Virus record (IMG/VR): IMGVR_UViG_3300042691_039569
Span: 1 to 54,973 of that record
DNA length: 54,973 bases
Origin: a virus
Strand: one strand, 5' to 3'
This document shows positions 3,647 to 52,997 of the stretch, piece by piece. Each line of letters starts with the position of its first letter. Position 1 is the stretch's first letter. A model generated the notes under the pieces. That model saw only the letters and a list, made by a program, of their open reading frames with translations, was not told the DNA's origin and made no database searches. Made by a program: the position numbers and the translations under genes.

Positions 3647-3675
3647 TTGCTTTAATTTATTAGATTTGCCATACT
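3647..3675 (+). promoter_or_regulatory. Early sigma70-like promoter
   Basis: TTGCTT, 17-nt spacer, CATACT; the -10 box ends 6 nt before the ATG at 3682, leaving almost no leader. Confidence 0.45.
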
Positions 3676-3681
3676 CTCATT

Positions 3682-4212
3682 ATGGCATTCTGTAAATTAT
3701 CTAACTATCACGGTCAAGTCTTCAAGGATATGAATCTCTGGGCTCCTAAAGGGGCTTATGTTTTCGATTCAGAGACTCACGAACCCATAGAGATCCAAGA
3801 AAAGACAGCTTTTTATACGACAGGCAATATGCGTTTGGGTATAGGAAAGTATCGCATTAACATGCTCACACTAAACGGTAAAAAGGTTTATTGCAACAAC
3901 TACATGATGGGAAGCGCCAAAAAGCGTTTTTACGCGCTATGGGAACTCAAAGATAAGCCATATACAGCTGAGGATATATTCGAAAAGTATGGTTATAAGG
4001 TTACACCAGACCATCAACGAGTTAAAAAGTATAAATTGACTGGTAGGGTTAGAGTTAAAAAGACTGCTAAAATTCTTCGAAATCAAGGTCGACTGGAAGA
4101 AGCTAATCGTATTGAAAGGGAATTAGAAGAACACCTTAAAATGGGTAAGCGATATATTTGCCCTATTTGGATGGACTTTAAAACCGAAGAACAGAAAAAA
4201 TCTTTTCATTAA
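3682..4212 (+). CDS. Hypothetical basic phage protein (176 aa)
   Basis: 176 aa with no family I recognise. The N-terminal half (about 1-95) is rich in Tyr, Asn and Gly and looks like a small beta domain. The C-terminal half is basic and helical with a long charged helix (about 125-155, RVRVKKTAKILRNQ... through ERELEEHLK), which could bind nucleic acid. It ends with a single Cys in RYICPIWMDF. It starts a run of short plus-strand genes each with its own promoter-like sequence. Codon use is less A-rich than that of the endonuclease gene. Confidence 0.75.
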   Translation: MAFCKLSNYHGQVFKDMNLWAPKGAYVFDSETHEPIEIQEKTAFYTTGNMRLGIGKYRINMLTLNGKKVYCNNYMMGSAKKRFYALWELKDKPYTAEDIFEKYGYKVTPDHQRVKKYKLTGRVRVKKTAKILRNQGRLEEANRIERELEEHLKMGKRYICPIWMDFKTEEQKKSFH

Positions 4213-4216
4213 AAGC

Positions 4217-4245
4217 GTGACAAAAATTTCAAAATCCTATTTAAT
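4217..4245 (+). promoter_or_regulatory. Early sigma70-like promoter
   Basis: GTGACA, 17-nt spacer, TTTAAT; 9 nt from the -10 box to ATG 4255. Confidence 0.4.
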
Positions 4246-4254
4246 TTATAAAGT

Positions 4255-4593
4255 ATGATTACAAAAGAAACACAAGAACTCGCGCGCGAAGTTAAAGGAA
4301 CAAATATTAAAGTCGTGGTAGATGATCCGGAATGGCAAACCTTGCGTCTTTGGTTGAAAGGCAAGTGGGCTATTCGAGGAAAAGAGTGCGTTCAAAGGAT
4401 GCGAAATTATTTTGAAGTTGATAAAGAGAATCCTTGGAGGGTTCGTCGTCTTTTGAATTATCTCACCTGCTCGGGATTTAGGACAGGAGCCATCAAAGAA
4501 ACCTCTGCAGAAGTTCTTCGAGAAGAGGTTCGAGAAGCTTGGCATAATCTTCTCGGAGAGAATGCTACTTGCCGAATGGGTGGAAAGTTGTAA
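4255..4593 (+). CDS. Hypothetical protein (112 aa)
   Basis: 112 aa, no recognised family. It is mostly helical and rich in Arg, Trp and Glu (LRLWLKGKWAIRGKE, NPWRVRRLLNYL), with two cysteines. The size, charge and position among early genes suggest a small host-interaction or regulatory protein, but nothing in the sequence shows a function. The start is the only ATG close to the upstream promoter-like sequence. Confidence 0.7.
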   Translation: MITKETQELAREVKGTNIKVVVDDPEWQTLRLWLKGKWAIRGKECVQRMRNYFEVDKENPWRVRRLLNYLTCSGFRTGAIKETSAEVLREEVREAWHNLLGENATCRMGGKL

Positions 4594-4601
4594 AAGACCT
4601 C

Positions 4602-4630
4602 TTGACTTTTATCGGAAATAATAGAAATTA
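4602..4630 (+). promoter_or_regulatory. Weak early promoter
   Basis: Good -35 box TTGACT at 4602-4607; the best-spaced -10 (AAATTA, 17 nt on) is poor and ends 8 nt before ATG 4639. Confidence 0.3.
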
Positions 4631-4638
4631 TTTTCTGT

Positions 4639-4800
4639 ATGGATTCCTATACTATTGACCAGCTTCAACGCATCGAAGAAAAATTAGACTTCATTATTAA
4701 AAATGTAGAAATTTCTTCAAAAGAAACTTCACCTGAAGATAAAAATCAAAAATACTTTCCTTGGTATCAAGACCTGAAGTCTTCTAAAGTCACTGTGTGA
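4639..4800 (+). CDS. Small hypothetical protein (53 aa)
   Basis: 53 aa from ATG 4639 to TGA 4800. The N-terminal part reads as a coiled-coil-like helix (IDQLQRIEEKLDFIIKNVE) and the tail as Ser/Lys-rich with PWYQDL. Its stop overlaps the GTG start of the next gene by 4 nt (GTGA), which suggests translational coupling and supports both genes being real. Confidence 0.6.
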   Translation: MDSYTIDQLQRIEEKLDFIIKNVEISSKETSPEDKNQKYFPWYQDLKSSKVTV

Positions 4801-5117
4801 CTGCATTTGAATTTAACGAAGAACTAAAAGAACGTTGTATTCTTTTGGGTGCTACACGCTGTTATACAAAGTATGTAGATAATCCAGAATACAAAAATGC
4901 TCCTTTTTGGTTTAATACTGTTGAACTACCTCTTCACATGCACAAAAATTACATAATGGTAGTTTGTGGTTTGGTGGATAGCTATTTAGAAGAAATGGCA
5001 TTTTGGGGTATTGAAAAACAAGACACTGATGTTTCTATCAACGAAAAAGGAAGATACGTCACTTATTGTTTTTATTACGATAAAGAAACTTTCCACAAAA
5101 TGTTGTGCGACTCGTGA
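4797..5117 (+). CDS. Hypothetical protein (106 aa)
   Basis: 106 aa from GTG 4797, chosen because it overlaps the preceding stop as GTGA. It mixes alpha and beta segments, with several aromatic residues and five cysteines (three in the first 25 residues and in the middle, and one near the C-terminus). No family recognised. Confidence 0.65.
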   Translation: MTAFEFNEELKERCILLGATRCYTKYVDNPEYKNAPFWFNTVELPLHMHKNYIMVVCGLVDSYLEEMAFWGIEKQDTDVSINEKGRYVTYCFYYDKETFHKMLCDS

Positions 5118-5135
5118 TAAATAAAAAGAAAATTT

Positions 5136-5312
5136 ATGTCACTCTCAAAAAATGAAATCGAATGTTTTGTAGACGCAGCTATTGATGATGCAATTCTAGA
5201 AATTTTTAAGAACCAATTTTATTCTTTTAAAGAAATCGAATACGCGGTGGATTACTTGAAAGAAAAAATTCAAGATATGGATCCAGAAGATTTTGAAGAC
5301 TCTGTTGGTTAG
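5136..5312 (+). CDS. Small acidic hypothetical protein (58 aa)
   Basis: 58 aa from ATG 5136 to TAG 5312. Acidic and helical (VDAAIDDAILEIFK, KEIEYAVDYLKEKIQDMD), like many phage small early proteins. It ends the plus-strand run and overlaps the end of the convergent minus-strand gene by 4 nt. Confidence 0.55.
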   Translation: MSLSKNEIECFVDAAIDDAILEIFKNQFYSFKEIEYAVDYLKEKIQDMDPEDFEDSVG

Positions 5313-5845
5313 AGTCCTTTAAGATACTGAGAAGTGTCTGCTGGTTGTTCAGCACCTCCAGGAAGAGCAGAAGGAGTTTCTCCTACTTGAGCTGGTACTT
5401 CTGTTCCTGCAGTAGCTTGTGTTTCTGCTTCTACCTTTTTAGTTTCAAGATAATCTACAATGTCAGAAATAGAAGACTCATCATAGGTGTCTTCAAACAT
5501 TTTAGGTTTCTCGTCTGATTTAGGAGGAACTGAGGCAATTTTAACAACTAAATTATTGACAGATTGGTTTTCGTCACTCTTAGCAGTATCTTTGCCTCCT
5601 CTGAAAACAAATTCAATCTTTTGGGAAATGTTGTTTTTTTCGTCGTTAAAAAGATAATAACCTTTCTTAATCGTTTCCATAGCAATTTTACGAAGGTCTG
5701 ATAATTTATTAGGATCAATTAAATTAGGTTTGCTGCGAAGCTGTTTTAACAAAATGACCACATAATCATAAAAAGAAGGATCATTTCGATCTTCTACATT
5801 AAATTCTTTGAGAAGTTTTGAGTAAACTAGGTTAAATCTTTTCAT
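5309..5845 (-). CDS. Hypothetical late protein (178 aa)
   Basis: 178 aa, no recognised family. Residues 1-100 look like a folded helical/beta domain; from about residue 120 it becomes an acidic, Ala/Pro/Gly-rich tail ending ADTSQYLKGL, a low-complexity style also seen at the portal C-terminus of this phage. A late motif (CATAAATA) 9 nt before the ATG places it with virion or lysis genes. Possibly a minor virion protein. Confidence 0.7.
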   Translation of the reverse strand: MKRFNLVYSKLLKEFNVEDRNDPSFYDYVVILLKQLRSKPNLIDPNKLSDLRKIAMETIKKGYYLFNDEKNNISQKIEFVFRGGKDTAKSDENQSVNNLVVKIASVPPKSDEKPKMFEDTYDESSISDIVDYLETKKVEAETQATAGTEVPAQVGETPSALPGGAEQPADTSQYLKGL

Positions 5846-5854
5846 TGTATATAC

Positions 5855-5862
5855 TATTTATG
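5855..5862 (-). promoter_or_regulatory. Late promoter motif (CATAAATA)
   Basis: CATAAATA on the minus strand, 9 nt before the ATG at 5845. Confidence 0.65.
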
Positions 5863-5988
5863 CTAGCCAAAATTCTTTTTTATATTTTCTTTACTTTTTA
5901 TTTTTTAATCAACCTTCCAGAAATACTTTGGTTGTTAATTCAAAGAGAGTGGATGTATTTTAAAGTAATGGTTAAAGAATTGTTCTAA
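5860..5988 (+). CDS. Possible small membrane protein (42 aa)
   Basis: 42 codons filling the gap between two minus-strand genes. Residues 1-26 are strongly hydrophobic (MLAKILFYIFFTFYFLINLP), then basic and aromatic, a plausible single membrane helix. Its ATG lies inside the minus-strand late motif and there is no ribosome binding site, so it may be chance. Confidence 0.3.
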   Translation: MLAKILFYIFFTFYFLINLPEILWLLIQREWMYFKVMVKELF

Positions 5989-6665
5989 ACAGAAGCTTCA
6001 ATCGCTTGAGCTTCTTTATCTCTTCTAGCAAGAAGACCATCTAATTTTTTTCCAACCCAAAGTCTCTTCATGGAACGAATTTCATTAGCAATGCCTTTAT
6101 AGTCTTTATTGACTACTAAAGGTTTAATATTTTTCATTTCAGCTCGAGATGGTCCTTTAATAGAAGCTCCTCTATTAAAAACTAAACTGACTAAAGCAAT
6201 TTGAGCGCTTTCTTTTAACTGATCTAACCCAGGCCAAAGATCATTGGCCATTTTCCAAAACTTAGGTAAAGTCCATTTTACAAACGCTTCAGAAGCATTG
6301 ACCCAAGATAATTCTATGTGTTGTACTTTAGACAAAGCTTTTTTAGCTTTATCTCCCTTTAGTCCAATAATTTTTTTAATTAAAACATTTTCTTCTGTTG
6401 TGAAGTAATGAGAAAAATAGTTTTCAAATTCTTCCAAAGACATATAACCCAAATCAGCTCCAATACCCATAGTAATACCAGATTCTCCTTTAGGCCATGT
6501 AAGTTTTTTTAAAAACTTTTCGTAATAATTTCTACCCCCAGTTTCAAATTCAATAACAGAGGACCAATCATAATCTAAATAAGTTCTCTTTTTGGGGAGT
6601 ACTTGTATTGATGGTGTATTTTCTTCAAACAAGTATTTTAAACATTTTAAAAGAAATTGTTTCAT
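5985..6665 (-). CDS. Endolysin, pesticin-like muramidase (GH24-like)
   Basis: 226 aa. After an N-terminal stretch of about 35 residues comes the lysozyme-like core: ETGG (E41), then GITMGIGADLGY (T65, D71), matching the Glu-Thr-Asp layout of the pesticin C-terminal/T4-lysozyme-like muramidases. The second half has the family block LVSLVFNRGAS...PSRAEMKNI. It would cut the glycan chain of peptidoglycan at lysis. No signal peptide or SAR segment is clear, so it needs a holin. It lies next to the holin-like genes and starts 1 nt after the following gene's end. Confidence 0.85.
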   Translation of the reverse strand: MKQFLLKCLKYLFEENTPSIQVLPKKRTYLDYDWSSVIEFETGGRNYYEKFLKKLTWPKGESGITMGIGADLGYMSLEEFENYFSHYFTTEENVLIKKIIGLKGDKAKKALSKVQHIELSWVNASEAFVKWTLPKFWKMANDLWPGLDQLKESAQIALVSLVFNRGASIKGPSRAEMKNIKPLVVNKDYKGIANEIRSMKRLWVGKKLDGLLARRDKEAQAIEASV

Positions 6666-6853
6666 TAAAAATCAGCCCCCCCTTTTATTTTAAATTTTAT
6701 TTTACTTAAAGCATCTTCAGTATCTGATGGCATTTTCTTAGCAGAAAACGAAAAAGAAGGTCTAATCGAAAGAAGAAGTCTCAACCAAAATGGTCTATCA
6801 TCTTGTTTAGAACTTGGATTTTTTATGTATTGTGAGTAATCTCGTTCAGGCAT
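6665..6853 (-). CDS. Small hypothetical protein in lysis cassette (62 aa)
   Basis: 62 aa, basic, with a central PFWLRLLLSIRP segment that could be membrane-associated. It lies tightly between the holin-like gene and the endolysin, so a role in lysis is likely by position. No family recognised; spanin-like motifs (lipobox, long coiled coil) are not seen. Confidence 0.6.
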   Translation of the reverse strand: MPERDYSQYIKNPSSKQDDRPFWLRLLLSIRPSFSFSAKKMPSDTEDALSKIKFKIKGGADF

Positions 6854-7500: not shown

Positions 7501-7539
7501 ACTAAAATTAATTATGTAAAAAATCCCCCTTTTTATAAA

Positions 7540-8190: not shown

Positions 8191-8201
8191 AAATGTAATA
8201 C

Positions 8202-8209
8202 TATTTATT
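8202..8209 (-). promoter_or_regulatory. Late promoter motif (AATAAATA)
   Basis: AATAAATA on the minus strand 11 nt before ATG 8190; helps choose the start of the GAF-like gene and heads the lysis cassette. Confidence 0.6.
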
Positions 8210-8237
8210 AGGTTTAGACCTAAAAACAAAGAATCTC

Positions 8238-8265
8238 TTGAAAAAAAAATTCTATCCCATAAAAT
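8238..8265 (+). promoter_or_regulatory. Early sigma70-like promoter
   Basis: TTGAAA, 16-nt spacer, TAAAAT; the -10 box ends 5 nt before GTG 8271. Confidence 0.45.
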
Positions 8266-8270
8266 TTATT

Positions 8271-8549
8271 GTGCTCTTTAATAAGAAACAAACTTTAAAG
8301 TACCCCCAAGATAGAGGTCTTTATGCATTCACTAAACACAGACGAGGGGATTTTTTGTTATTTTTGAAAGAAGGCTTACCAGGAGTCTTTGAATTTATGC
8401 AATTGCCTGATAGATATGTTTTATCTTTTACTATAGAAGAATTTACAGAAGCATGTAACACTAAACTATTGGACCTAGTAGAGCAGCTTCCGGAAGACGT
8501 ATTCGATGTGGCAAATGCTAATAAAGTAAATTTAGAAAAAAACCCTTGA
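8271..8549 (+). CDS. Hypothetical early protein (92 aa)
   Basis: 92 aa from GTG 8271; an in-frame TTG at 8238 would extend it by 11 residues but coincides with the -35 box of a promoter, so GTG is preferred. Alpha/beta with FLLFLKEG and a C-terminal acidic helix (LDLVEQLPEDVFDVANANK). No recognised family. Confidence 0.6.
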   Translation: MLFNKKQTLKYPQDRGLYAFTKHRRGDFLLFLKEGLPGVFEFMQLPDRYVLSFTIEEFTEACNTKLLDLVEQLPEDVFDVANANKVNLEKNP

Positions 8550-8575
8550 CCTGATTGCTCGTTTGATCATATATT
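8546..8575 (+). promoter_or_regulatory. Early sigma70-like promoter
   Basis: TTGACC, 18-nt spacer, TATATT; 11 nt from the -10 box to ATG 8587. Confidence 0.55.
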
Positions 8576-8586: not shown

Positions 8587-8826
8587 ATGAAAAAACCTAA
8601 AAGTACTATTGAACCCGTAGATATTAATAAAATGTCTTTGTATTCTCTGTGTCGTTGGTCTGCTCTAGAAGAAGCAGTCAATATCATTGGAGATAAGGCA
8701 GAAGATCGTGGCATCCCCTTTGAAACTATAGAATTGAAACCTCTAGATCTTTACAAATATATTGATAAAGCTTCGGATAAAATTTATGAAAAGGTGTCAG
8801 CTGTGGTTGACATCCAACACAAATAG
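8587..8826 (+). CDS. Small hypothetical protein (79 aa)
   Basis: 79 aa, helical, with a SLYSLCRWSALEEAV segment and a charged C-terminal helix. No family recognised. It has its own early promoter, and a further promoter for the next gene is embedded in its last codons. Confidence 0.65.
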   Translation: MKKPKSTIEPVDINKMSLYSLCRWSALEEAVNIIGDKAEDRGIPFETIELKPLDLYKYIDKASDKIYEKVSAVVDIQHK

Positions 8827-8834
8827 TCTAAACT
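8807..8834 (+). promoter_or_regulatory. Early sigma70 promoter
   Basis: Consensus TTGACA, 16-nt spacer, TAAACT; 9 nt from the -10 box to ATG 8844. The -35 box lies inside the end of the preceding gene. Confidence 0.6.
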
Positions 8835-9973: not shown

Positions 9974-10001
9974 TGGATATATATTTAGGGTATTGTATAA
10001 T
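9973..10001 (+). promoter_or_regulatory. Early sigma70 promoter interlocked with a late motif
   Basis: TTGGAT (9973-9978), 17-nt spacer, consensus TATAAT (9996-10001), ahead of ATG 10033. The minus-strand late motif at 9982-9989 lies inside the spacer. Confidence 0.65.
9982..9989 (-). promoter_or_regulatory. Late promoter motif (CCTAAATA)
   Basis: CCTAAATA on the minus strand, 8 nt before ATG 9973, within the spacer of the divergent early promoter. Confidence 0.6.
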
Positions 10002-10407: not shown

Positions 10408-10597
10408 TTTATATTTTGAAGGGGAAAGAATGGGGGTGGATTTCGAGTATGATGAGGAGTTTCGCCGAAATGTAGCTAAAATTTGCGGGGTCAATTATAT
10501 TTCTAAAAAAGAACTCCAAATTTTTGTGGTACATGCTATGAAGCATGTTTTATCTCAAGAAGATATTTCTAATCTTCGTAAAGAGATAGAAAGTTAA
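10388..10597 (+). CDS. Small hypothetical protein (69 aa)
   Basis: 69 aa from ATG 10388, overlapping the previous gene by 20 nt. A second start at 10430, behind a purine-rich GGGGAAAG that could be one of the few real ribosome binding sites here, gives 55 aa and may be the true one. Acidic and helical (DFEYDEEFRRNVAKICGV). No recognised family. Confidence 0.55.
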   Translation: MHLEIDNLYFEGERMGVDFEYDEEFRRNVAKICGVNYISKKELQIFVVHAMKHVLSQEDISNLRKEIES

Positions 10598-11499
10598 TTC
10601 AAGCGAGATATCAGATCGACTAAATTTTGAGATCTTATAAAAGATTCTTTCCAAGAATCTAATTCTTTTAGAAAAGAATAAAATTCTACTTCATGACATT
10701 TAGCTTCAAATGTTTTAATGTCTGTCTTTAAAGATTTTAATTCTTGGTATTGTTTCTCGTAACAATCGGCTTCTCCTTCTTCTTTGTCGTAAGATTTAAA
10801 GAGATCTACCATTTTGATATTAATATCAAACTTATTTTTGTCTTCTTCACTCAAAACTTTACAAATACCATCATACCCCTCAGATACTAATCGTTTAGAT
10901 TTAACAACACCGTAACCATCTATTCCTTCGATATTATCTGATTTGTCTCCTAATAGAGCTTTATAATGAACGTATTGTTCTACTCGGACTCCCATCTCCT
11001 CTTCAAAATTTTCTAATGTAATTAATTTCTTACTAATAGGGTTATAAAAATCCGTATGAGCATCCACTAATTGAAGCATATCTTTATCTACAGAAACAAT
11101 AACTGAAGAAGAACATTTTTCTTTCACCAAGAATGAAATGATATCGTCTGCTTCTAAGCTCCAAGGATACATTTGTTTAATTCCTAGAAGCTTGATCCAA
11201 GGTTCAATGAGATCAAATTGCTCATGAACCTTATTAGCTAATTCAGAATCTCTATTTTGTTTATAGGTATCAGGAGCTAATTGCTTACGGTAATTGGTAG
11301 AAGGGTAATTTAATTTCTTATCCCAACACAAAAACGTTTCATTGGGTTTAAATTTGTCTTGTAAAGATTTAAGAGACTTCAAAAACAAATAAACAGGACC
11401 AGTCCAATTACCGCTAGAATTAATAAATTTGGGTTTAGATTCAGCAATCCAATAGGCTCTAAAGAGTAGATTGGAGCCGTCTATTACAAGTGATTTCAT
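10594..11499 (-). CDS. rnh: RNase H / FEN-family 5'-3' exonuclease
   Basis: 301 aa, near the length of T4 RNase H (305). It has the FEN-family metal sites in order: VIDGSNLLFRA (5-15), EADDI (116-120), SVDKDMLQL (136-144), and the helix-hairpin-helix-like GDKSDNIEGIDGYG (184-197). It would remove RNA primers and flaps during lagging-strand synthesis, working with the phage polymerase and clamp. It is transcribed from its own early promoter, divergent from the next plus-strand gene. Confidence 0.88.
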   Translation of the reverse strand: MKSLVIDGSNLLFRAYWIAESKPKFINSSGNWTGPVYLFLKSLKSLQDKFKPNETFLCWDKKLNYPSTNYRKQLAPDTYKQNRDSELANKVHEQFDLIEPWIKLLGIKQMYPWSLEADDIISFLVKEKCSSSVIVSVDKDMLQLVDAHTDFYNPISKKLITLENFEEEMGVRVEQYVHYKALLGDKSDNIEGIDGYGVVKSKRLVSEGYDGICKVLSEEDKNKFDINIKMVDLFKSYDKEEGEADCYEKQYQELKSLKTDIKTFEAKCHEVEFYSFLKELDSWKESFIRSQNLVDLISRLN

Positions 11500-11505: not shown

Positions 11506-11533
11506 AATTTAATATAGAAAAAATTCTTTTCAA
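11506..11533 (-). promoter_or_regulatory. Early promoter for the exonuclease gene
   Basis: Minus strand: TTGAAA, 16-nt spacer, TAAATT; only 6 nt from the -10 box to ATG 11499. Confidence 0.5.
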
Positions 11534-11534: not shown

Positions 11535-11562
11535 TTGAAATCCTGAAAGAATCTGTTAAGAT
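11535..11562 (+). promoter_or_regulatory. Early promoter, divergent
   Basis: TTGAAA, 16-nt spacer, TAAGAT; 9 nt to ATG 11572. The -35 boxes of the two divergent promoters are adjacent. Confidence 0.55.
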
Positions 11563-16311: not shown

Positions 16312-16319
16312 TATTTATG
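16312..16319 (-). promoter_or_regulatory. Late promoter motif (CATAAATA)
   Basis: Minus strand, 12 nt before ATG 16299; overlaps the stop codon of the 1741-aa gene. Confidence 0.65.
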
Positions 16320-21546: not shown

Positions 21547-21554
21547 TATTTAAC
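21547..21554 (-). promoter_or_regulatory. Late promoter motif (GTTAAATA)
   Basis: Minus strand, 6 nt before GTG 21540; supports the non-ATG start. Confidence 0.6.
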
Positions 21555-22579: not shown

Positions 22580-22587
22580 TATTTATT
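22580..22587 (-). promoter_or_regulatory. Late promoter motif (AATAAATA)
   Basis: Minus strand, 5 nt before ATG 22574; overlaps the stop of the 1364-aa gene. Confidence 0.5.
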
Positions 22588-26687: not shown

Positions 26688-26695
26688 TATTTAAG
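26688..26695 (-). promoter_or_regulatory. Late promoter motif (CTTAAATA)
   Basis: Minus strand, 7 nt before ATG 26680. Confidence 0.65.
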
Positions 26696-29176: not shown

Positions 29177-29184
29177 TATTTAAT
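29177..29184 (-). promoter_or_regulatory. Late promoter motif (ATTAAATA)
   Basis: Minus strand, 5 nt before ATG 29171. Confidence 0.45.
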
Positions 29185-30086: not shown

Positions 30087-30094
30087 TATTTATG
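30087..30094 (-). promoter_or_regulatory. Late promoter motif (CATAAATA)
   Basis: Minus strand, 7 nt before ATG 30079; overlaps the stop codon of the upstream PKD gene. Confidence 0.65.
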
Positions 30095-33535: not shown

Positions 33536-33543
33536 TATTTATT
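33536..33543 (-). promoter_or_regulatory. Late promoter motif (AATAAATA)
   Basis: Minus strand, 7 nt before ATG 33528. Confidence 0.6.
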
Positions 33544-35023: not shown

Positions 35024-35031
35024 TATTTATG
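35024..35031 (-). promoter_or_regulatory. Late promoter motif (CATAAATA)
   Basis: Minus strand, 9 nt before ATG 35014. Confidence 0.7.
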
Positions 35032-35048: not shown

Positions 35049-36908
35049 TTAAGCGGGAGGCGCTTCTGTTGGTGAAGTTTCTGTTGGTGGTGCCTCTGTG
35101 GGGGTTTCTGCTGGTGTTTCTTCTGGGGCGACTTCAGCCGTTGGAGCACTACCTCCAAAAGAAGGAATTTCTTCGGATCCCCCACCCCCACCACCACTCG
35201 GAGCTGAAGGTGCTTCTTCGCTACCCCCTTCTGGAGAAATACCTGCGGCCGCAGCAGCTTGTTCTCTCCAATTAGGACCAGACCCTTCAATTTGACCCAA
35301 TTCCCATCGAAAGGCCGCATCTTTTTGCAACCAAGCTCTATTTTCTTTCATGAGGTCATCTGCCATACCTAAGAAGTATTTTTGAGCGTAAGAAGTAGAA
35401 ATAGAATTATTTCCGGTAATTTTTAAAAAATTATCAAATTTAATATCCAATAATTGTTGATCCCTCATTGCCATGAAGCTAGTGGGGATATTAAACTCTA
35501 ATTGGATAGAACGTTGTTTAAGTTTATATTGTTGCCAAAAACCTTTAATTTTTAAATGAGCAATAAACGTATCACGAATACCCATTGCCACTTGTCTTTG
35601 GATTCGCATAATGAATTTAGCGAACCTCAATTCATCACGAGTAATTTCAGCTCCGTCTTTAAAGGGGGTATCAGAAGCTAAGAACCTAGAAATAGGAACT
35701 TTTAAAGATTCATAAAGTTTTTTAAGGAAGTAATCTAAATCTTTTATTTCTCCTAAATTTCCACCACTCGGTAAAATATCTACATCTGTGCCATTGCCTT
35801 GAGCGTCTTTGGTGAACCAATAAGAATCCAACATAGATTGAGGATCATAGATGTTAGTCATCTTTCCTCCGTCTTGTTGAGAATCATAATTCCTTTTAGT
35901 CCAATAACTTTGCATGAGCCTCTTGAGATAAGCTTCTGCTTTTGGAGCTGGCATGTTACCAGTATAAACTCGGAATTTAAGTCTCTCCGGTGCTCTTACC
36001 AATCGATAAATAACTACAGAGTCTTCAATGAGAGACAATTGGCGATAAGCTCTCTTAGAATTTTCAATGTAAGGTAAACGAATGCTTTTGAACTCATTCC
36101 AAATATTAGAATGAACATAAGTGACTTGTGCCTTATTCATAAAAAAGACTTCTTCTTGGTCTTTTTTACTCATAGAATTTGTAGGTCCGGTTACTGGTTT
36201 GCGAATAATAAATCCTTTAATTAGTTCATTTTGAACATTATGATAAACGGGATTAACCAATTCTGTCGGCAAAGAAATTAATCCAACAATGCCTAAATCT
36301 TTACGATCAGCATCTATAATGTTTTCGAAAAACAATTCTCCGTCAATAAGAAATTGTCTAAAGTATTCCCATCCTCTATTTTCCAAATCAAAAACAGTAA
36401 TAAATTTTTTAAATTCCTTTTCAATAGAATCTTTAATTTCTTTGCTATACTCGCCTCTTAAATTAAAAGTTACAATATTGTCATTTTCATCTTTAACAAT
36501 ACATTCATCACAAATCTCATCAATACAATTCGCTAACTCGGCGTAAGCAGCCATTCTACGGTAATCAGACAAACGATGAGATTTGTCTTTATCTATAGAA
36601 GCATAAATGAATGCTTGATAATCTTTATTAATGGTAATAGAACCTGGAGCGCCATGAGAAGGCTGAAACGAAGGTTCATCTAAAAAGACAGACTGATTTT
36701 GAATTAATTCATCTCTCTTAGGAGCTACATTTTTAAAGTCTTTGAACTTCGGATTCCTTTGCATAATGGAATCCAAAATAGAATAAGCATAAGGAAGTCG
36801 AGAGGCAAAAGCCCCTAAAAGAGAAGTCGAAGGATAAGACTGATCTTGAATAGGTCCTAAAGTATTACCAGGAACAGCATTATTATTAGAGTAGGGCCGA
36901 TAAATCAT
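35049..36908 (-). CDS. 20: Portal vertex protein (T4 gp20-like)
   Basis: 619 aa, longer than T4 gp20 (524). The core matches the gp20 family: LANCIDEICDECIVKDENDN, then a Lys/Glu-rich helix, GWEYFRQFLIDGELFFENII, IGLVG-like ISLPTELVNPVYH and the late block IRLPYIENSKRAYRQLSLIE. It forms the dodecameric ring through which DNA is packaged and ejected, and it starts head assembly. The extra length is a C-terminal tail of about 70 residues rich in Gly, Pro, Ser, Glu and Thr. No other head gene is next to it here, unlike T4. Late motif 12 nt upstream. Confidence 0.9.
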   Translation of the reverse strand: MIYRPYSNNNAVPGNTLGPIQDQSYPSTSLLGAFASRLPYAYSILDSIMQRNPKFKDFKNVAPKRDELIQNQSVFLDEPSFQPSHGAPGSITINKDYQAFIYASIDKDKSHRLSDYRRMAAYAELANCIDEICDECIVKDENDNIVTFNLRGEYSKEIKDSIEKEFKKFITVFDLENRGWEYFRQFLIDGELFFENIIDADRKDLGIVGLISLPTELVNPVYHNVQNELIKGFIIRKPVTGPTNSMSKKDQEEVFFMNKAQVTYVHSNIWNEFKSIRLPYIENSKRAYRQLSLIEDSVVIYRLVRAPERLKFRVYTGNMPAPKAEAYLKRLMQSYWTKRNYDSQQDGGKMTNIYDPQSMLDSYWFTKDAQGNGTDVDILPSGGNLGEIKDLDYFLKKLYESLKVPISRFLASDTPFKDGAEITRDELRFAKFIMRIQRQVAMGIRDTFIAHLKIKGFWQQYKLKQRSIQLEFNIPTSFMAMRDQQLLDIKFDNFLKITGNNSISTSYAQKYFLGMADDLMKENRAWLQKDAAFRWELGQIEGSGPNWREQAAAAAGISPEGGSEEAPSAPSGGGGGGSEEIPSFGGSAPTAEVAPEETPAETPTEAPPTETSPTEAPPA

Positions 36909-36920: not shown

Positions 36921-36928
36921 TATTTAAG
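36921..36928 (-). promoter_or_regulatory. Late promoter motif (CTTAAATA)
   Basis: Minus strand, 12 nt before ATG 36908 of the portal gene. Confidence 0.65.
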
Positions 36929-36980
36929 GTTTTTGTGTAAGATTTGCCATTTTTAAATTAAAGTGTTAAAGTATGTTATT

Positions 36981-38835: not shown

Positions 38836-39431
38836 ATATTATTAAACACTGCAAACAATGAAGAGGGGAAGTCGTTAACATCATTCGGATCAGTTCCTGC
38901 ACTCAATTCTACTACGTTAGTGTATCCATCAAAATCATCATCTGCAGTAAGGGATAAAATAAAATTAACAGACAATTCTGGGGTAACTGTTAAAGGAAGT
39001 TCAGTTCCTACAACAATACCATCTTTCCAAGGTCTTTGGTAAGGTTCGTATGTATCATAGTCTATTGTACCAGAAACATAGGGGTTAATAGTATTTTTAA
39101 TGGCAAAATGAGTCAATTTACCCCACCCTGCTTCATTTAATAAAATAACATCAGCAAACCCTTCATAAGAAGCAGAGGGCATAGTAAACACTAATTGATT
39201 GTTATTATTAGAAATATAATTTGTAGCACTTAATTGAATAGCAGAAAATGCAGGATATTCTGCGGAAAGTCGAGGAGAAGCAGAAAAGGGATTAAAAAAA
39301 GTTTGATCATCAAAAACATTTCCTGATAGAAAAACTCCTTGTATTTTAAAAAAGGATTTACCGAAAACACTAAAGGTTTTAGTAACCCCAGTAGGGACTA
39401 CTGGGGGAATAAATGGTTTTCTTATAATCAT
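38832..39431 (-). CDS. Ig-like virion protein with calcium-binding (TSP3-type) repeat (199 aa)
   Basis: 199 aa. Residues about 15-110 look like an IPT/TIG-type Ig fold (KTFSVFGKSFFKIQGVFLSG). Residues about 163-188 contain DDDFDGYTN...GTDPNDVND, the acidic calcium-binding pattern of thrombospondin type 3 repeats. Such repeats stiffen extracellular proteins when calcium is bound. Start overlaps the sheath-stabiliser stop as ATGA. Probably a decoration or neck/tail accessory protein. Confidence 0.65.
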   Translation of the reverse strand: MIIRKPFIPPVVPTGVTKTFSVFGKSFFKIQGVFLSGNVFDDQTFFNPFSASPRLSAEYPAFSAIQLSATNYISNNNNQLVFTMPSASYEGFADVILLNEAGWGKLTHFAIKNTINPYVSGTIDYDTYEPYQRPWKDGIVVGTELPLTVTPELSVNFILSLTADDDFDGYTNVVELSAGTDPNDVNDFPSSLFAVFNNI

Positions 39432-40177
39432 AATTCAGCAATAAGAATTTGGGGTTGAGGAACAGCCGAAAGAAGAGTTCTTTCTGTTAAATTCAAATCT
39501 AATTGATCTAAAGAATACTTGGTAGTTAATTCATTGACCATAGAAAAGTCTGAGGTAAATTTAAAAATTTTAGCATCACCTTTACTTGGAATGGCTTTGA
39601 AGATCCATCCTTTAATAGTGAATGCTAAGTCTGCTTGGTAACGAGCAATTTGAGAAGCATTTAAATCTGTAGGGTAGGTAGTATTAACCGTACCGTTCCA
39701 AATAACAGGACTACGAATTTCTTGATCATATACTCCAGGAATCCTCCAACTTAAAATGTGTTGAGGGTTAGTCCAAGCTACTAAGTTAGTAATAATTTGA
39801 TCCATATCACTAGCATATTTGGTTAAGATGGAACAATTTAAAGTAATGTCTACCGGATTAGGTTGGGGAATTTTTTTAAGTTCTGAAGGATCTGTTGATC
39901 TAGCATAATATCCTTCTAATTTATTCCATACTCTAGCAGGGTCTCTAGTGATACCCCCCAAATAAAAAGTTACTACTGGGAGTTGTATGTTCTGAGCTTT
40001 GTCTAAAAGATCTAAAAGAACTCTTTGTTTTGGGGAGTAAACGAAGCGAACTTTAATCCAATCAATCGCCTCTCCGAAATTAGTTCTTTTTCTGCGAGCT
40101 ACTACAACATCATCGAGCATACTCATCACCCCGTTAATTTGAATGAATATCTCGTTGTTGAAAGTATAAGTCCTCAC
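39428..40177 (-). CDS. 15: Tail sheath stabiliser / completion protein (T4 gp15-like)
   Basis: 249 aa from GTG 40177; an ATG further in (MSMLDD) is the alternative. It follows the gp15 pattern: IKVRFVYSPKQRVLLDLLDK, then PVDITLNCSILTKYASDMDQ with a helix, LSWRIPG, and YQADLAFTIKGWIFKAI. T4 gp15 caps the finished tail and joins it to the head. The neighbours differ from T4: gp13, gp14, gp16-19 are not adjacent, and two secreted-type proteins lie between this gene and the portal. A late-like motif CATAAGTA is 6 nt upstream. Confidence 0.75.
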   Translation of the reverse strand: MRTYTFNNEIFIQINGVMSMLDDVVVARRKRTNFGEAIDWIKVRFVYSPKQRVLLDLLDKAQNIQLPVVTFYLGGITRDPARVWNKLEGYYARSTDPSELKKIPQPNPVDITLNCSILTKYASDMDQIITNLVAWTNPQHILSWRIPGVYDQEIRSPVIWNGTVNTTYPTDLNASQIARYQADLAFTIKGWIFKAIPSKGDAKIFKFTSDFSMVNELTTKYSLDQLDLNLTERTLLSAVPQPQILIAEL

Positions 40178-42719: not shown

Positions 42720-43643
42720 CTATTTTACTTTTTTAGCAAGGTCGTCTTCTTTAACAGGTCGTTCTTGAACGTCTTCGTCTGTTAACTTTTGATAAAGTTC
42801 AGACATTTTCAATTTGAACTTAGTCCAAAGTTTTCGTTTTCGATCATCTTGATCATCTCTAATAGTATCTAAAAAATCTTTAAAGCCTGCCACATAACTA
42901 GGCAATGTTAATTCTCCTAAATCAAAATAAGCTTCGGGCTGGGCTTTAGTCAATACTCTTAATTCAGTAAAGAATAAATTTAAACGATTTTCAAAAATTC
43001 TTTTAGTAGCAGGGTCTTTGGCTTTTTTAATAGCATCTGTTAATTCCTGATGTTTTTGTCTGATATTATAAACCACTTCATTTAAATGGGTATCATACTC
43101 AATAGGTTCTCTATAATAAAGTTCCGCACTTACCGGTTCTTCTGAATCTGTAGCTGCTCTATAACGCGAAGAAACTCCTTTGTATTCTTGGAAGCCGTGG
43201 GTAATTTCATGTAAAATTTTAGACTCTACTAATCTTAAAGAAAGACCCTTTATATTTTTATCATAAAGATTAACGGTTTCAAAATTTTCACTGTAAGCTG
43301 CATATTCATCTCCTGTGTTTCCATAGACACAAAAGACAGTAATGACTTTTTCTTCTTGAGTTTCTAAATCCATCAACTTAACTTTACCTAAAGGTTTTTC
43401 CATTGGTGTAAAGTAAGTAGGCATATTAATTTTAAAATGAGCAAAGTATTCTTTGTAATGTTTATTTTTTTCGAAAGATACAATTTTTTTACGATCAATT
43501 AATTTGGTTATGTCTGCGTTCTTGCTATTGTATTCATTGAAATATAATTCAGCTATCTTTTTAATTTGTTTAAGAAGAGCAGGAGAAGGGGCTTCACGAA
43601 ACCTAGCTTCTTTTAATAGGGTTGTAAATTCTTTAAAATTCAT
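42720..43643 (-). CDS. Late HExxH protein, putative zinc metallopeptidase (307 aa)
   Basis: 307 aa from ATG 43643; a longer reading to 43742 would cross the late motif and an oppositely directed gene. SKILHEITHGFQEYKG (142-157) carries HEITH, the HExxH zinc signature, with a candidate third ligand downstream among the Glu/Asp residues of SEEPVSAELYYREP. The rest is helical and charged. The late motif 8 nt upstream suggests it acts during assembly or is carried in the virion. It is unrelated to the T4 gp21 serine protease. Activity is inferred from the motif. Confidence 0.6.
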   Translation of the reverse strand: MNFKEFTTLLKEARFREAPSPALLKQIKKIAELYFNEYNSKNADITKLIDRKKIVSFEKNKHYKEYFAHFKINMPTYFTPMEKPLGKVKLMDLETQEEKVITVFCVYGNTGDEYAAYSENFETVNLYDKNIKGLSLRLVESKILHEITHGFQEYKGVSSRYRAATDSEEPVSAELYYREPIEYDTHLNEVVYNIRQKHQELTDAIKKAKDPATKRIFENRLNLFFTELRVLTKAQPEAYFDLGELTLPSYVAGFKDFLDTIRDDQDDRKRKLWTKFKLKMSELYQKLTDEDVQERPVKEDDLAKKVK

Positions 43644-43651: not shown

Positions 43652-43659
43652 TATTTATG
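43652..43659 (-). promoter_or_regulatory. Late promoter motif (CATAAATA)
   Basis: Minus strand, 8 nt before ATG 43643; it contains the ATG of the divergent plus-strand gene at 43657. Confidence 0.6.
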
Positions 43660-44340: not shown

Positions 44341-44505
44341 ATGAAAAAAGAAGAAACATTCATCTCAGAAGAAGAATTCAACCAAATTAAAGTAAAGACA
44401 AACCTTACAGAAGAAGATATAAGGATCATTAATTTGAAGCCTCGTTTTCCTCTTTTAGCTAATCTTTGGCTTAAAATTTGGTTATTTTTCAATAAAATTC
44501 GTTAA
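44341..44505 (+). CDS. Small protein with hydrophobic C-terminus (54 aa)
   Basis: 54 aa from ATG 44341 to TAA 44505. A charged, acidic N-terminal part (EETFISEEEFNQIKVK) is followed by KPRFPLLANLWLKIWLFFNK, a short hydrophobic segment that could anchor in the membrane. Its stop codon lies within the late motif of the next gene. Confidence 0.5.
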   Translation: MKKEETFISEEEFNQIKVKTNLTEEDIRIINLKPRFPLLANLWLKIWLFFNKIR

Positions 44506-44508
44506 ATA
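44501..44508 (+). promoter_or_regulatory. Late promoter motif (GTTAAATA)
   Basis: Plus strand, 8 nt before ATG 44517; includes the stop codon of the preceding gene. Confidence 0.6.
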
Positions 44509-44862: not shown

Positions 44863-44890
44863 TTGACAATTTCCTGAAATAGATTATTCT
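44863..44890 (+). promoter_or_regulatory. Strong early sigma70 promoter
   Basis: TTGACA, 16-nt spacer, TATTCT; 6 nt from the -10 box to ATG 44897. Drives the six-gene operon that ends with two deaminases. Confidence 0.65.
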
Positions 44891-45955: not shown

Positions 45956-45956
45956 T

Positions 45957-47592: not shown

Positions 47593-47600
47593 TATTTATG
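47593..47600 (-). promoter_or_regulatory. Late promoter motif (CATAAATA)
   Basis: Minus strand, 10 nt before ATG 47582; separates this late gene from the upstream early operon. Confidence 0.65.
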
Positions 47601-49670: not shown

Positions 49671-49678
49671 AAAGCTGT

Positions 49679-49684
49679 ATTATA
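49679..49684 (-). promoter_or_regulatory. Consensus -10 box upstream of the DUF366-like gene
   Basis: TATAAT on the minus strand, 8 nt before ATG 49670. No good -35 box at the usual distance. Confidence 0.4.
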
Positions 49685-49688
49685 CAAT

Positions 49689-50369: not shown

Positions 50370-50995
50370 AGAAGAAAGTAAGGATTGTCATAAGGGAAGG
50401 TTCCAATTTGTTTAAAATTTAAACCAGTAAATTCATAAATGATACCATCTTCTTCTATCTGATGAGATCCTTCAAACGACATAGAACTAAAAGAATCTTG
50501 ATCCATGTGCAGAGAAGAACCAGCTTTGACTATATAAAGCTTTTCTGTATCGTAAATCCAAGACGTTAAAAGTCCTTTGTAATTAGAATAGGTCTTAGCG
50601 ATGTCGCCTTTACTAGCATGAAGATGATAGGGAATAATAGAAGAATCTACATCAAACTCCTTATGAATACTAAAGTCTGTAAAGTTTTGTATAATACCAT
50701 TATGAGCTACGAAATAAAACCCAAAGTTGAACGGATGTGTGGTATTATAATTGAAAGAAGGATCTTTGGAATTGGTAGGAGCGCGAGAATGAAAAAGATA
50801 GTATATGGGAAATTCTTCTAAAGACTTTAATTCTTCTTTCAATCCTTCTAAAGTAAAGGGAGATTCTTGTTTGGAAAGATGAAAATGATTCTGAGTGAAT
50901 ACTAAAACACCAGAAGCAAAAGATCCTCTATCTAAACCTTGAGTATAAAGTTGATAGGCTTTTTCTAAAGAAGGAGCACCACAGATATTACACAT
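50366..50995 (-). CDS. Class II glutamine amidotransferase (Ntn-type)
   Basis: 209 aa. Begins MCNICG; Cys2 becomes the N-terminal nucleophile after Met removal. LFHSRAPT (67-74), HPF (87-89) and AHNGIIQN (97-104) are the class II amidotransferase motifs that bind glutamine and line the active site. It releases ammonia from glutamine for a partner enzyme. It lies 4 nt after queC, and no synthase domain is attached, so QueC is the natural partner (compare Gat-QueC fusions). A glucosamine-type sugar synthase is the alternative partner but none is seen here. Confidence 0.8.
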   Translation of the reverse strand: MCNICGAPSLEKAYQLYTQGLDRGSFASGVLVFTQNHFHLSKQESPFTLEGLKEELKSLEEFPIYYLFHSRAPTNSKDPSFNYNTTHPFNFGFYFVAHNGIIQNFTDFSIHKEFDVDSSIIPYHLHASKGDIAKTYSNYKGLLTSWIYDTEKLYIVKAGSSLHMDQDSFSSMSFEGSHQIEEDGIIYEFTGLNFKQIGTFPYDNPYFLL

Positions 50996-50999
50996 GAAT

Positions 51000-51725
51000 T
51001 TATAATGGAGTACAATTAAATTTTCGCCACGGTATTTCTTTTAAATAGAGAAGAGGGTCTACTTTTTTACACTCAACAAAGCCTTGAAGTCTCGCCGAAC
51101 ATGCAGGACAACTTCCACAACTTAAATCTTTTCCTTCATAGCAAGTCCAAGTCTTTTCAAATTGAACTCCTAAAGAAATTCCATATTCAATAATTTCTTT
51201 CTTCGACATCTTAACTAGAGGAGCTTGTATTTGGACTTTGTGAAGTCGATTATAAGCCAAACAATCATTCAGACTGTTTCTAAATTGAGAAGTTCCATCC
51301 CAATGACCACTCGTATCATCTACTAAAGCCGCCCCGTAAAAGACATCAGAGCATCCATTAGCTTCTGCATAAGAAGCCGCAATAGACAACATGATCATAT
51401 TACGATTAGGGACGTGAGCTTTATTTTGAGCTTCTCCGATAACGTCTTTCATTTGAGGGACGTTAATATCTTTATTGGTTAAAGCGGATGTAGGAGCTAA
51501 TTGAGAAAGAAATTTCAAATCCACTACCACGTGTTGTTTAATGGAACTACCTTCTCCTACTCCCAAATTGGTAGTGTACTCTAGAGCTTTGTCAATTTCT
51601 TTACGATGTCTCTGATTGTAATCGTAAGTTAAACAATAGATTTCTTCGTATTCTTTTAAACAATGATGAAGAACTACTGTTGAATCCATTCCTGAACTAA
51701 AAATTACTACACATTTTTTACTCAT
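51000..51725 (-). CDS. queC: 7-cyano-7-deazaguanine (preQ0) synthase QueC-like
   Basis: 241 aa, usual QueC size. The PP-loop is IFSSGMDST (8-16, SGGxDS in most); LTYDYNQRHRKE (32-43), HVPNRN (104-109) and a Cys4 zinc site (C195, C203, C206, C209) in TCYEGKDLSCGSCPACSARL are all present. QueC converts 7-carboxy-7-deazaguanine to preQ0 using ATP and ammonia. One canonical block, DYSGYPDCR, reads DTSGHWDGT here (137-145). FolE, QueD and QueE are not in the window. First gene of the operon. May serve DNA or tRNA modification. Confidence 0.85.
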   Translation of the reverse strand: MSKKCVVIFSSGMDSTVVLHHCLKEYEEIYCLTYDYNQRHRKEIDKALEYTTNLGVGEGSSIKQHVVVDLKFLSQLAPTSALTNKDINVPQMKDVIGEAQNKAHVPNRNMIMLSIAASYAEANGCSDVFYGAALVDDTSGHWDGTSQFRNSLNDCLAYNRLHKVQIQAPLVKMSKKEIIEYGISLGVQFEKTWTCYEGKDLSCGSCPACSARLQGFVECKKVDPLLYLKEIPWRKFNCTPL

Positions 51726-51771
51726 TATTGATAATAATATAAACCATTTTCATTATAATTCACCCAAATAC

Positions 51772-51779
51772 CTTAAATA
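51772..51779 (+). promoter_or_regulatory. Late promoter motif (CTTAAATA)
   Basis: Plus strand, 9 nt before ATG 51789. Confidence 0.65.
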
Positions 51780-51788
51780 ATATAACCT

Positions 51789-52172
51789 ATGGTATTCAAA
51801 GACTCCACTCTTCTTCAAGAAGCTTACATTTCGGCAGTTCAAAAAACAGTTAATGTTCCTTCCAGTACTCCTCAATTAGACGCTGAAGTTAATCCTTCCT
51901 CAGAACCTATGACTATTGCTATTGGGGGCCAACCATCACCTGATGAAGGATGTGGTTGTGGTGGAGCTGAAGAAGAGGGTGAAGAAAATTATATGGCTAT
52001 GGCTAATTTGTTTTCACTTTTTAGTAATGCTAAAAAATTACACAGTTACACTATAGGAGGCATCAAGTTAGATCCTTGGATGCAACAGAAGATTGCCGTT
52101 TGTGCAGACAACCTAGAAGCTGTAGCTAGATCTATTAACTATGATGCCGCCAAAGCCGGCATGTGTGATTAA
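51789..52172 (+). CDS. Small late protein with Cys/Gly/Glu-rich middle (127 aa)
   Basis: 127 aa. A helical start (STLLQEAYISAVQKT) is followed by a Ser/Pro linker, then DEGCGCGGAEEEGEE (about 57-71), then a helical C-terminal half (LDPWMQQKIAVCADNLEAVA). The CGCGG motif could bind a metal. The strong late motif and separate transcription suggest a virion or assembly protein. No family recognised. Confidence 0.65.
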   Translation: MVFKDSTLLQEAYISAVQKTVNVPSSTPQLDAEVNPSSEPMTIAIGGQPSPDEGCGCGGAEEEGEENYMAMANLFSLFSNAKKLHSYTIGGIKLDPWMQQKIAVCADNLEAVARSINYDAAKAGMCD

Positions 52173-52375
52173 TTGATTGAGTCGTCTGCAGGAATGAAAT
52201 AACGATTCCCGGCAGAGATACTTTGTTCATACACATCATGAAGCTGAGAGGCTAGATTACGATCTACCTTCATCATAAGCTCCAACAACTTAAAAGAGGA
52301 AGAGGAAATCCCATTCACATCTTTTAGGGTTTCAGCGATGTATTGTTTGACGAGTTCTTGTGCTTCTGTATTCAT
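52169..52375 (-). CDS. Small helical hypothetical protein (68 aa)
   Basis: 68 aa, convergent with the preceding gene by a 4-nt overlap. Helical (EAQELVKQYIAETLKDVNGI, SSSFKLLELMMKVDRNLASQ). No family recognised. Confidence 0.6.
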   Translation of the reverse strand: MNTEAQELVKQYIAETLKDVNGISSSSFKLLELMMKVDRNLASQLHDVYEQSISAGNRYFIPADDSIN

Positions 52376-52380
52376 TTTTT

Positions 52381-52554
52381 TTAACTGTTAATAATGTCTT
52401 CTAGTTCTTGTTTAATTTCTTTTTCTGTTTTTAGGCGATAATTGCCGTTTTTCATTTTAACAACCATTCCTTCTTTTTCAAGATAATTTAGGTGATGTTG
52501 CACTGCTTCGATCTTTTGATCTTCTGTTAGGCTGAGGTATTCTTTGTCACTCAT
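52381..52554 (-). CDS. Small hypothetical protein, possible winged-helix (57 aa)
   Basis: 57 aa from ATG 52554 to TAA 52381. EDQKIEAVQHHLNYLEKEGM then VVKMKNGNYRLKTEKEIKQE reads like the helix-wing part of a small winged-helix DNA-binding protein. Lies 5 nt from the next gene in a minus-strand run of small genes. Confidence 0.55.
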   Translation of the reverse strand: MSDKEYLSLTEDQKIEAVQHHLNYLEKEGMVVKMKNGNYRLKTEKEIKQELEDIINS

Positions 52555-52555
52555 T

Positions 52556-52720
52556 TTATTTATAACTAATATAACGATAGGTTTGTTTTTGGCACTCCAA
52601 TTGATCCAACCAACTACAATTACTAAACCATACCATATTATGGCCGAGTAATGAGGTTTGTTGTTTATTAAATCGAAGATCTTCTTTCAAAGCTTCGATT
52701 ACTTTCTTTACTATTTTCAT
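52556..52720 (-). CDS. Small hypothetical protein with duplicated start region (54 aa)
   Basis: 54 aa from ATG 52720. Two further in-frame ATGs lie 12 and about 78 nt upstream. Because ATGAAACAAACC is tandemly repeated, the start is ambiguous. Basic N-terminal helix, then a Trp/Cys-rich end (HNMVWFSNCSWLDQLECQKQ). No family recognised. Confidence 0.45.
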   Translation of the reverse strand: MKIVKKVIEALKEDLRFNKQQTSLLGHNMVWFSNCSWLDQLECQKQTYRYISYK

Positions 52721-52741
52721 GGTTTGTTTCATGGTTTGTTT
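52718..52741. repeat. 12-bp tandem duplication at a start codon
   Basis: CATGGTTTGTTT occurs twice in exact tandem (52718-52729, 52730-52741), giving MKQTMKQT when read on the minus strand. Confidence 0.6.
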
Positions 52742-52783
52742 GGTGATTATGAATATTTTGATAAAAAACTCACGCTCTTTTGT

Positions 52784-52791
52784 ATTAAATA
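52784..52791 (+). promoter_or_regulatory. Late promoter motif (ATTAAATA)
   Basis: Plus strand, 5 nt before ATG 52797. Confidence 0.5.
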
Positions 52792-52796
52792 TAATC

Positions 52797-52997
52797 ATGG
52801 CGACTCTTATTCCTATTTTGTCTACTACTCCCGGTTCTCAGTTGAGTTACAATCCTTCTATGGCTGAAACTTTTTCTTGGGTACCCATTGCGGCTTCTGG
52901 TAGGCCTTTATTTGCCCAAGCAGTATACCCGATTAACATGCAAGAACAACTGACTACCATCACTAATGTTCTTTGTGCCATCTTAGCTAAACCTTAA
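52797..52997 (+). CDS. Small late protein (66 aa)
   Basis: 66 aa from ATG 52797. Begins MATLIPILSTTPGSQLSYNP; rich in Pro, Ser, Thr and Ala with no charged clusters, as in small decoration or head-completion proteins. Ends with a hydrophobic helix (TTITNVLCAILAKP). The late motif supports a virion role. Converges with the next gene, overlapping 15 nt. Confidence 0.55.
   Translation: MATLIPILSTTPGSQLSYNPSMAETFSWVPIAASGRPLFAQAVYPINMQEQLTTITNVLCAILAKP

Follow-up and report, generated by a model that had tools for sequence, protein, structure and literature searches.

In T4, the late promoter box TATAAATA occupies positions −13 to −6 (PMC1524935). Leaderless genes of bacteria have been inferred from a −10 box located ca. 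10–12 nucleotides (nt) before the start codon (Zheng et al., PMC3160421), and frequent leaderless transcripts in phages have been noted in passing in one phage study (PMC5312081). In phages, such genes have so far been described singly, and in bacteria they form a minority. Here, we analyze a linear viral DNA fragment of 54,973 bases (b), the complete IMG/VR record IMGVR_UViG_3300042691_039569 (G000), hereafter called the window, in which T4-type late promoter motifs and sigma-70-like promoters lie a few nt before many of the start codons.

The results suggest, with a probability that we put at roughly 0.86, that the transcripts of this phage are leaderless or near-leaderless (0–8 nt) throughout, for early and late genes alike. 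In the proposed mechanism, the early genes would be transcribed by the host sigma-70 polymerase from TTGnnn-17-TATAAT promoters, and the late genes would have a T4-type promoter, (A/T)TAAATA, recognized by a sigma factor of the gp55 type. The first transcribed base (+1) would be the A or G of the start codon or lie 1–8 nt upstream, too close for a Shine-Dalgarno (SD) sequence to fit in between, and the ribosomes would start on the 5′-terminal AUG or GUG. The downstream genes, mostly stop-overlapping (ATGA, TAATG, 1-nt spacing) and in few cases having an SD, would be reached by coupled termination and re-initiation. The basis of this proposal, taken directly from the sequence, consists of the identity of the motifs, their spacing and its cut-offs, the initiator dinucleotide, the lack of SD, the spacing of the genes, the conservation, and the presence of gp55 in relatives.

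Promoters and Start Codons in the Window

The late motif was defined as WTAAATA located 4–13 nt upstream of a start codon, and 77 curated starts of the window were considered. The motif is present at 19 of them, with gaps of 5–12 nt, compared to 0.9 ± 1.0 expected from 1,000 dinucleotide shuffles (maximum 5) and to 1.7 ± 1.3 (maximum 8) when the last 30 nt alone are shuffled. The initial annotation, which had placed the late motifs mostly 5–12 nt before the start, was thus correct on this point. The gene starts come from a simple caller plus some analyst choices, those at 43643, 8190, 22574, and 52797 having been picked among several in-frame options; a gene caller that has no promoter model gives the motif at 19 of 70 starts.

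On the plus strand, ATAAATA is found at 117..123, 5 nt from ATG 129, and, as a borderline late-like case, at 5117..5123 (12 nt to ATG 5136), while TTAAATA is found at 2209..2215 (7 nt to ATG 2223), 44502..44508 (8 nt to ATG 44517), 51773..51779 (9 nt to ATG 51789), and 52785..52791 (5 nt to ATG 52797). On the minus strand, ATAAATA precedes ATG 5845 (5855..5861, 9 nt), ATG 8190 (8202..8208, 11 nt), ATG 16299 (16312..16318, 12 nt), ATG 22574 (22580..22586, 5 nt), ATG 30079 (30087..30093, 7 nt), ATG 33528 (33536..33542, 7 nt), ATG 35014 (35024..35030, 9 nt), ATG 43643 (43652..43658, 8 nt), and ATG 47582 (47593..47599, 10 nt). TTAAATA on the same strand precedes GTG 21540 of a protein of 1741 amino acids (aa) (21547..21553, 6 nt), ATG 26680 of a 1364-aa protein (26688..26694, 7 nt), ATG 29171 (29177..29183, 5 nt), and ATG 36908 of the portal gene gp20 (36921..36927, 12 nt), and the variant CTAAATA lies at 9982..9988, 8 nt from ATG 9973.

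Sigma-70-like sites, with at least 9 of the 12 consensus bases, hexamers spaced by 16–18 nt, and a gap of 5–11 nt to the start, are found at 13 of the 77 starts, compared to 1.1 ± 1.1 in shuffles, several of the 13 being AATAAT boxes inside late motifs. Counting TANNNT without a −35 hexamer is noisy. The initial annotation had named nine early promoters of this geometry, six of which have good −35 and −10 hexamers: on the plus strand, TTGAAA-16-TAAAAT at 8238..8265 (5 nt to GTG 8271), TTGACC-18-TATATT at 8546..8575 (11 nt to ATG 8587), TTGACA-16-TAAACT at 8807..8834 (9 nt to ATG 8844), TTGAAA-16-TAAGAT at 11535..11562 (9 nt to ATG 11572), and TTGACA-16-TATTCT at 44863..44890 (6 nt to ATG 44897); on the minus strand, TTGAAA-16-TAAATT at 11506..11533, 6 nt from ATG 11499 of the 5′-3′ exonuclease gene (10594-11499). 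At ATG 49670 there is a perfect TATAAT (49679..49684, minus strand, 8 nt) with no clear −35, and the examples at 3682 and 4255 proved weak. The present analysis adds three sigma-70-like sites, namely TTGACT-18-AATTAT at 4602..4631 (plus strand, 7 nt to ATG 4639), TTGCCA-17-TAAAGT at 36944..36972 (plus strand, 8 nt to ATG 36981), and TTGACT-16-TATCTT at 53527..53554 (minus strand, 7 nt to ATG 53519).

Promoter-to-Start Spacing in Related Phages

The spacing was also determined for a non-redundant set of 1,091 genes of related viral contigs, in which no 7-residue peptide is shared within the N-terminal 110 aa. Gaps of 0, 1, 2, 3, and 4 nt between WTAAATA and the start codon occur at 2, 5, 2, 0, and 5 genes, respectively, and gaps of 5, 6, 7, and 8 nt at 62, 65, 43, and 21 genes. 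For the sigma-70 pattern TTG-(3+16..18)-TAnnnT, the counts are 4, 4, 4, 5, 2, and 5 at gaps of 0–5 nt, followed by 32, 16, and 17 at gaps of 6–8 nt. The gap thus has a sharp lower edge, located at 5 nt for the late motif and at 6 nt for the sigma-70 promoter. The −10 hexamer of sigma-70 promoters occupies positions −12 to −7, i.e., six bases separate it from +1, so a gap of 6 nt would place +1 on the start codon; likewise, a gap of 5 nt would place the late +1 on the ATG, because the T4 box ends at −6. The two unrelated promoter types therefore appear to stop at the distance where +1 would coincide with the initial base of the start codon. The −10 element lies ca. 10–12 nt before the start codon, as in the bacterial leaderless genes.

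The same distribution is obtained with other sets of genes. Among the first 679 distinct genes of relatives, WTAAATA gaps of 1–8 nt occur 4, 1, 0, 2, 28, 54, 38, and 21 times, and those of 9–13 nt 16, 18, 14, 11, and 8 times, with sparse cases beyond. The contigs anchored on gp23 give 4, 59, 39, and 25 genes at gaps of 4–7 nt, and those anchored on gp44 give 2, 53, 39, and 21. A scan of 833 kilobases (kb) that is independent of gene calls finds 149 WTAAATAAT sites, about 95 of which are followed after 3–14 nt by the ATG of an open reading frame of at least 40 codons and one after 0–2 nt; controls with the reversed motif and with mirrored promoters give a weaker signal.

The base that precedes the ATG is consistent with this assignment of +1. 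Among the genes with a late gap of 5 nt, T accounts for 84% and C for 6% of these bases; the corresponding values are 75% and 14% at a sigma-70 gap of 6 nt, and 49% and 14% for genes without a recognized promoter. A pyrimidine is thus found in 90%, 89%, and 63% of the cases, respectively, and a pyrimidine followed by a purine at +1 is the usual initiator preference.

The spacing is conserved between orthologues. [A/T]TAAATA is found 6–12 nt before the start in 20 of 21 portal genes, the window included, while the other upstream sequence differs, and an alignment of 230 late sites reveals no strong upstream conservation (no other conserved element at −35). In the best relative, G019, the replication genes gp43, gp32, and gp44 have TATAAT-type boxes 6–7 nt from the ATG, and the orthologue of the exonuclease of the window has TATAAT at 6 nt.

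It should be mentioned here that about a third of the late-linked genes have gaps of 9–13 nt, which implies leaders of 4–8 nt, and that the choice of start site is flexible by 1–3 nt. Both points would fit an alternative in which the promoters are real and the messages have short leaders of ca. 4–12 nt, translated by an SD-free mechanism rather than by strictly 5′-terminal initiation. We consider this alternative unlikely, as the gap has its mode at 5–7 nt, most of the implied leaders being 0–3 nt long, and the pyrimidine-purine initiator at the ATG is strongest exactly at the late gap of 5 nt and the sigma-70 gap of 6 nt.

Shine-Dalgarno Sequences and Start Codons

SD sequences in the window were sought as 4-nt matches to AAGGAGGTGA at positions −18 to −4. 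They are found at 5 of the 77 starts, which is the background level, in agreement with the earlier statement that they are mostly absent. For the 1,091 genes of relatives, the frequency is 10.4%, compared to 15.1% at a control position. In the phage family of the window, matches of at least 4 nt occur at 11.7% of the starts versus 10.0% in shuffles, and at the late-linked genes the values are 3.1% and 2.0%. The corresponding frequencies in other phages are 78% versus 28% in shuffles for T4, 58% versus 27% for HTVC008M, 46% versus 26% for Syn9, 76% versus 36% for Melnitz, and 75% versus 36% for phiM9. The Prochlorococcus phage P-SSM2 (NC_006883, 60001-109900) has 16% versus 17% in shuffles and yet lacks the promoter spacing described here. 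Absence of SD is therefore not enough to produce the leaderless geometry, and the two features are separable.

The promoter-linked genes start with ATG in 420 cases, GTG in 28, and TTG in none, a distribution that agrees with mycobacterial leaderless initiation, which takes ATG and GTG and not TTG (PMC4633059), and that is weak evidence given that TTG is rare anyway. More than a third of the 21 portal orthologues start with GTG, which suggests that GUG is usable at or near the 5′ end of a message in the host of these phages. The replacement of ATG by GTG is seen at the portal loci L003, L006, L010, L016, L017, L018, L024, and L027, in most cases at a gap of 6 nt from the late motif.

As a separate observation, runs of 5–7 G are present ca. 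6–30 nt upstream of the minus-strand starts at 6665, 7500, and 12454 of the window, which is unusual at 33% GC. These runs are possibly SD-like or structural.

Late Sigma Factor and Ribosomal Protein bS21

Neither gp55 nor the clamp gp45 was found in a first set of contigs, and gp55 turned up in larger relatives. The gp55 family (phrog_234) is matched in 11 of 15 large relatives, with best E values per record from 4e-16 to 8e-29, and a separate profile built from seven gp55 sequences gives 8e-23 for G019 and 2e-24 for G027.

Ribosomal protein bS21 is encoded by four large relatives (G019, G020, G024, and G027). Its gene in G019 (G019:C1:190721-190936, minus strand) is itself preceded by TTG-17-TATAAT ending 7 nt before the ATG. 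In the small ribosomal subunit, bS21 is located beside the anti-SD (PMC9723584). The relatives that encode it may alter the host ribosome. That the phage bS21 favors leaderless messages is speculation.

Gene Packing and Probable Coupled Translation

Of the 1,099 genes classified by promoter and gene spacing, 330 have a late motif in range and 118 have a sigma-70 site. Another 324 have neither and lie at most 12 nt from the preceding gene or overlap it, their commonest spacings being −4 (79 genes), +1 (55), and −1 (42). This arrangement suggests that these promoterless, close-packed genes, which make up about a third of the total, are placed for stop-start coupling, i.e., for coupled translation. 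An alternative SD was sought in these internal genes, and only GGAGG/GAGG is modestly enriched (18 GGAGG). On account of this enrichment, the host probably has a canonical anti-SD of which these phages make little use.

The inference of the initial annotation that leaderless initiation is used phage-wide is supported by these data, with some refinement. The two promoter cut-offs, the pyrimidine before the ATG, and the background level of SD all agree with it, and "leaderless or nearly so" is the more exact description of what they point to; the operon-internal genes, which appear to be positioned for coupling instead, had been missed.

We have also considered whether a compact genome could by itself bring the promoters close to the starts, the important messages being long, leadered read-through transcripts. 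The genes are indeed tightly packed, and the late ones occur in long one-strand runs. After a strand switch, however, space is not limiting, and the first genes still have a late motif in 42% and a sigma-70 site in 16% of the cases, with the same spacing. Moreover, T4 is also compact and yet has most of its motifs 21–28 nt from the start codon, separated from it by an SD, which makes this explanation very unlikely.

The distribution of the motif among the operons also bears on the question, raised with the initial annotation, of whether it is instead a translation signal in longer mRNAs, i.e., an SD substitute such as an A-rich start context of the Bacteroidota kind. The absence of SD would fit such a role, as would the replacement of SD by AT-rich start contexts described for Bacteroidota (PMC6847099), and the bias toward T at −1 is also present, although weaker, in promoterless genes. 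However, genes that overlap a same-strand upstream gene need to be translated as well, and the late motif is nearly absent from them (2%, compared to 57% of the genes located 13–40 nt from the upstream gene), which argues that it is not a translation signal. Furthermore, the signal is a specific 7-mer that matches the T4 late promoter, with a variable gap and a hard lower edge; the unrelated TTG-17-TATAAT has its own edge where its geometry predicts it; and the relatives encode gp55. A role in translation is thus highly improbable.

Finally, given the 33% GC of the genome and the few analyst-chosen starts, the pattern might be suspected to be an artefact, due either to AT-richness by chance or to the starts that were selected. 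This is excluded by the dinucleotide shuffles, the motif-blind gene caller, and the gene-independent genome scans, and T4, P-SSM2, and HTVC008M have a similar AT-richness without having the genome-wide pattern.

Several points weigh against leaderless or near-leaderless transcription throughout the phage. In addition to the longer late gaps discussed above, the +1 positions were assumed from the T4 and sigma-70 geometry. A search for gp55 gave no match in the window, which is a 55-kb fragment, and the clamp gp45 gives a weak match in G019 (E 0.002), between gp17 and gp32, which may represent a divergent clamp. Of the 1,099 genes, about 30% have no recognized promoter and lie more than 12 nt from any upstream gene, and neither mode accounts for them. 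Translation could also take place on transcripts that read through from upstream. In addition, E. coli translates leaderless messages poorly (PMC4633059), and the scheme would therefore require either a host that is permissive or a phage factor.

A more far-reaching scenario, to which we give less than even odds, is that the whole lineage gave up SD-led initiation, with the host sigma-70 and phage gp55 promoters both moved onto the start codon so that early and late messages are leaderless, coupling within operons, and the bS21 of some members perhaps retuning the host ribosome toward these messages.

Identity of the Window and Its Relatives

The window has no tRNAs, and only a few of its proteins have matches in PHROGs. 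The gp20 portal gene (Portal_T4, 35049..36908, minus strand, E 2e-98) served as the anchor for finding relatives, and a homologue of the gp15 tail sheath stabilizer is encoded at 39428..40120 (minus strand). The other products include ThyX, the 5′-3′ exonuclease, PhoH, QueC, and dCMP deaminase, and the gene that starts after the late-type motif at 117..123 (129-1343, plus strand) is homing-endonuclease-like (phrog_3339). A scan of viral contigs with PhoH gave no match, yet G019 holds a homologue with 65% identity.

The nearest named phages to the window portal are cyanophages, with ca. 31% identity, and 28 IMG/VR loci have portals 46–86% identical to it. Homologues of gp4, 6, 13, 15, 17, 18, 19, 20, 21, 23, 25, and 44 are present on the related contigs. 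G019 is 218,400 b long, has a portal 73% identical to that of the window, and carries gp17, 18, 21, 23, 32, 43, 44, 46, 47, and 55 as well as uvsW. Because of the portal and gp15 in the window and the T4 core genes in the relatives, we assign the window to a deeply divergent T4-like phage, whose full genome is probably ca. 200 kb.

With regard to the host, the portal was not found in genome contigs with single-protein or alignment queries. Neither whiB nor psbA was found among the marker genes, and hence nothing points to Actinobacteria or cyanobacteria as hosts. The early promoters of this lineage are the classical TTG-17-TATAAT, which differs from the Bacteroidota promoter, TAnnTTTG. In the PDB, the top match to the bS21 encoded by the phages includes a protein that we presume to be a Bacteroidota bS21, which is a weak indication.

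Implications

A search of the open literature, with most subscription journals outside its reach, returned no report of genome-wide leaderless use for both early and late genes in a T4-like phage. A genome-wide design based on two independent promoter systems, with SD essentially lost, would thus, if true, be new for T4-like phages in that literature, and the efficiency of leaderless translation during infection would become a testable question. The spacing also offers a better start-calling rule for a large group of uncultured phages.

Comparison with Known Systems

The late promoters described here resemble those of T4 in the TAAATA core preceded by T or A, in the AT-rich tract that follows, in their multiple occurrence on structural genes, and in the gp55 homologues of the relatives. 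They differ in lying 5–13 nt from the start, with SD at background, rather than at the T4 distance with its SD-led starts. The promoter-to-start geometry is found neither in T4 nor in Syn9, Melnitz, or phiM9.

The leaderless genes of Actinobacteria and Deinococcus-Thermus have, like the present ones, a −10 box ca. 10–12 nt upstream, no SD, and ATG or GTG starts (PMC3160421, PMC4633059), but they involve sigma-70-type boxes only and ca. 20–25% of the genes, whereas here a phage late sigma system would be used as well and the SD is essentially given up. The cI transcript of lambda also has its 5′ end at the start codon, in that case for a single gene. In phiKZ, the TATG late promoter encloses +1 (PMC5312081), and the phage differs in using its own RNA polymerase.

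A further likeness is to HTVC008M, a cultured Pelagibacter phage of the Kyanoviridae, in which gp55 and bS21 are annotated and ca. 7 genes have WTAAATA exactly 5 nt from the ATG. Six of these genes, read one by one (NC_020484; 6280, 7562, 19456, and 31132, and on the minus strand 16007 and 18916), all have ATAAATAG, with the motif ATAAATAGnnnnATG, and five of the six lack an SD. They differ from the present case in being a minority, the remainder of the genome being mostly SD-led and its sigma-70 sites not being so placed. Judging from this geometry, the ATAAATAGnnnnATG genes are likely a leaderless late class within an SD-using genome. Late-promoter prediction in phages like HTVC008M has been reported as unsuccessful (PMC7029224), and the leaderless geometry may be the reason that late promoters escaped notice in the pelagimyophages. 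As HTVC008M is cultured and shares the 5-nt feature, a direct experimental test is possible in this phage.

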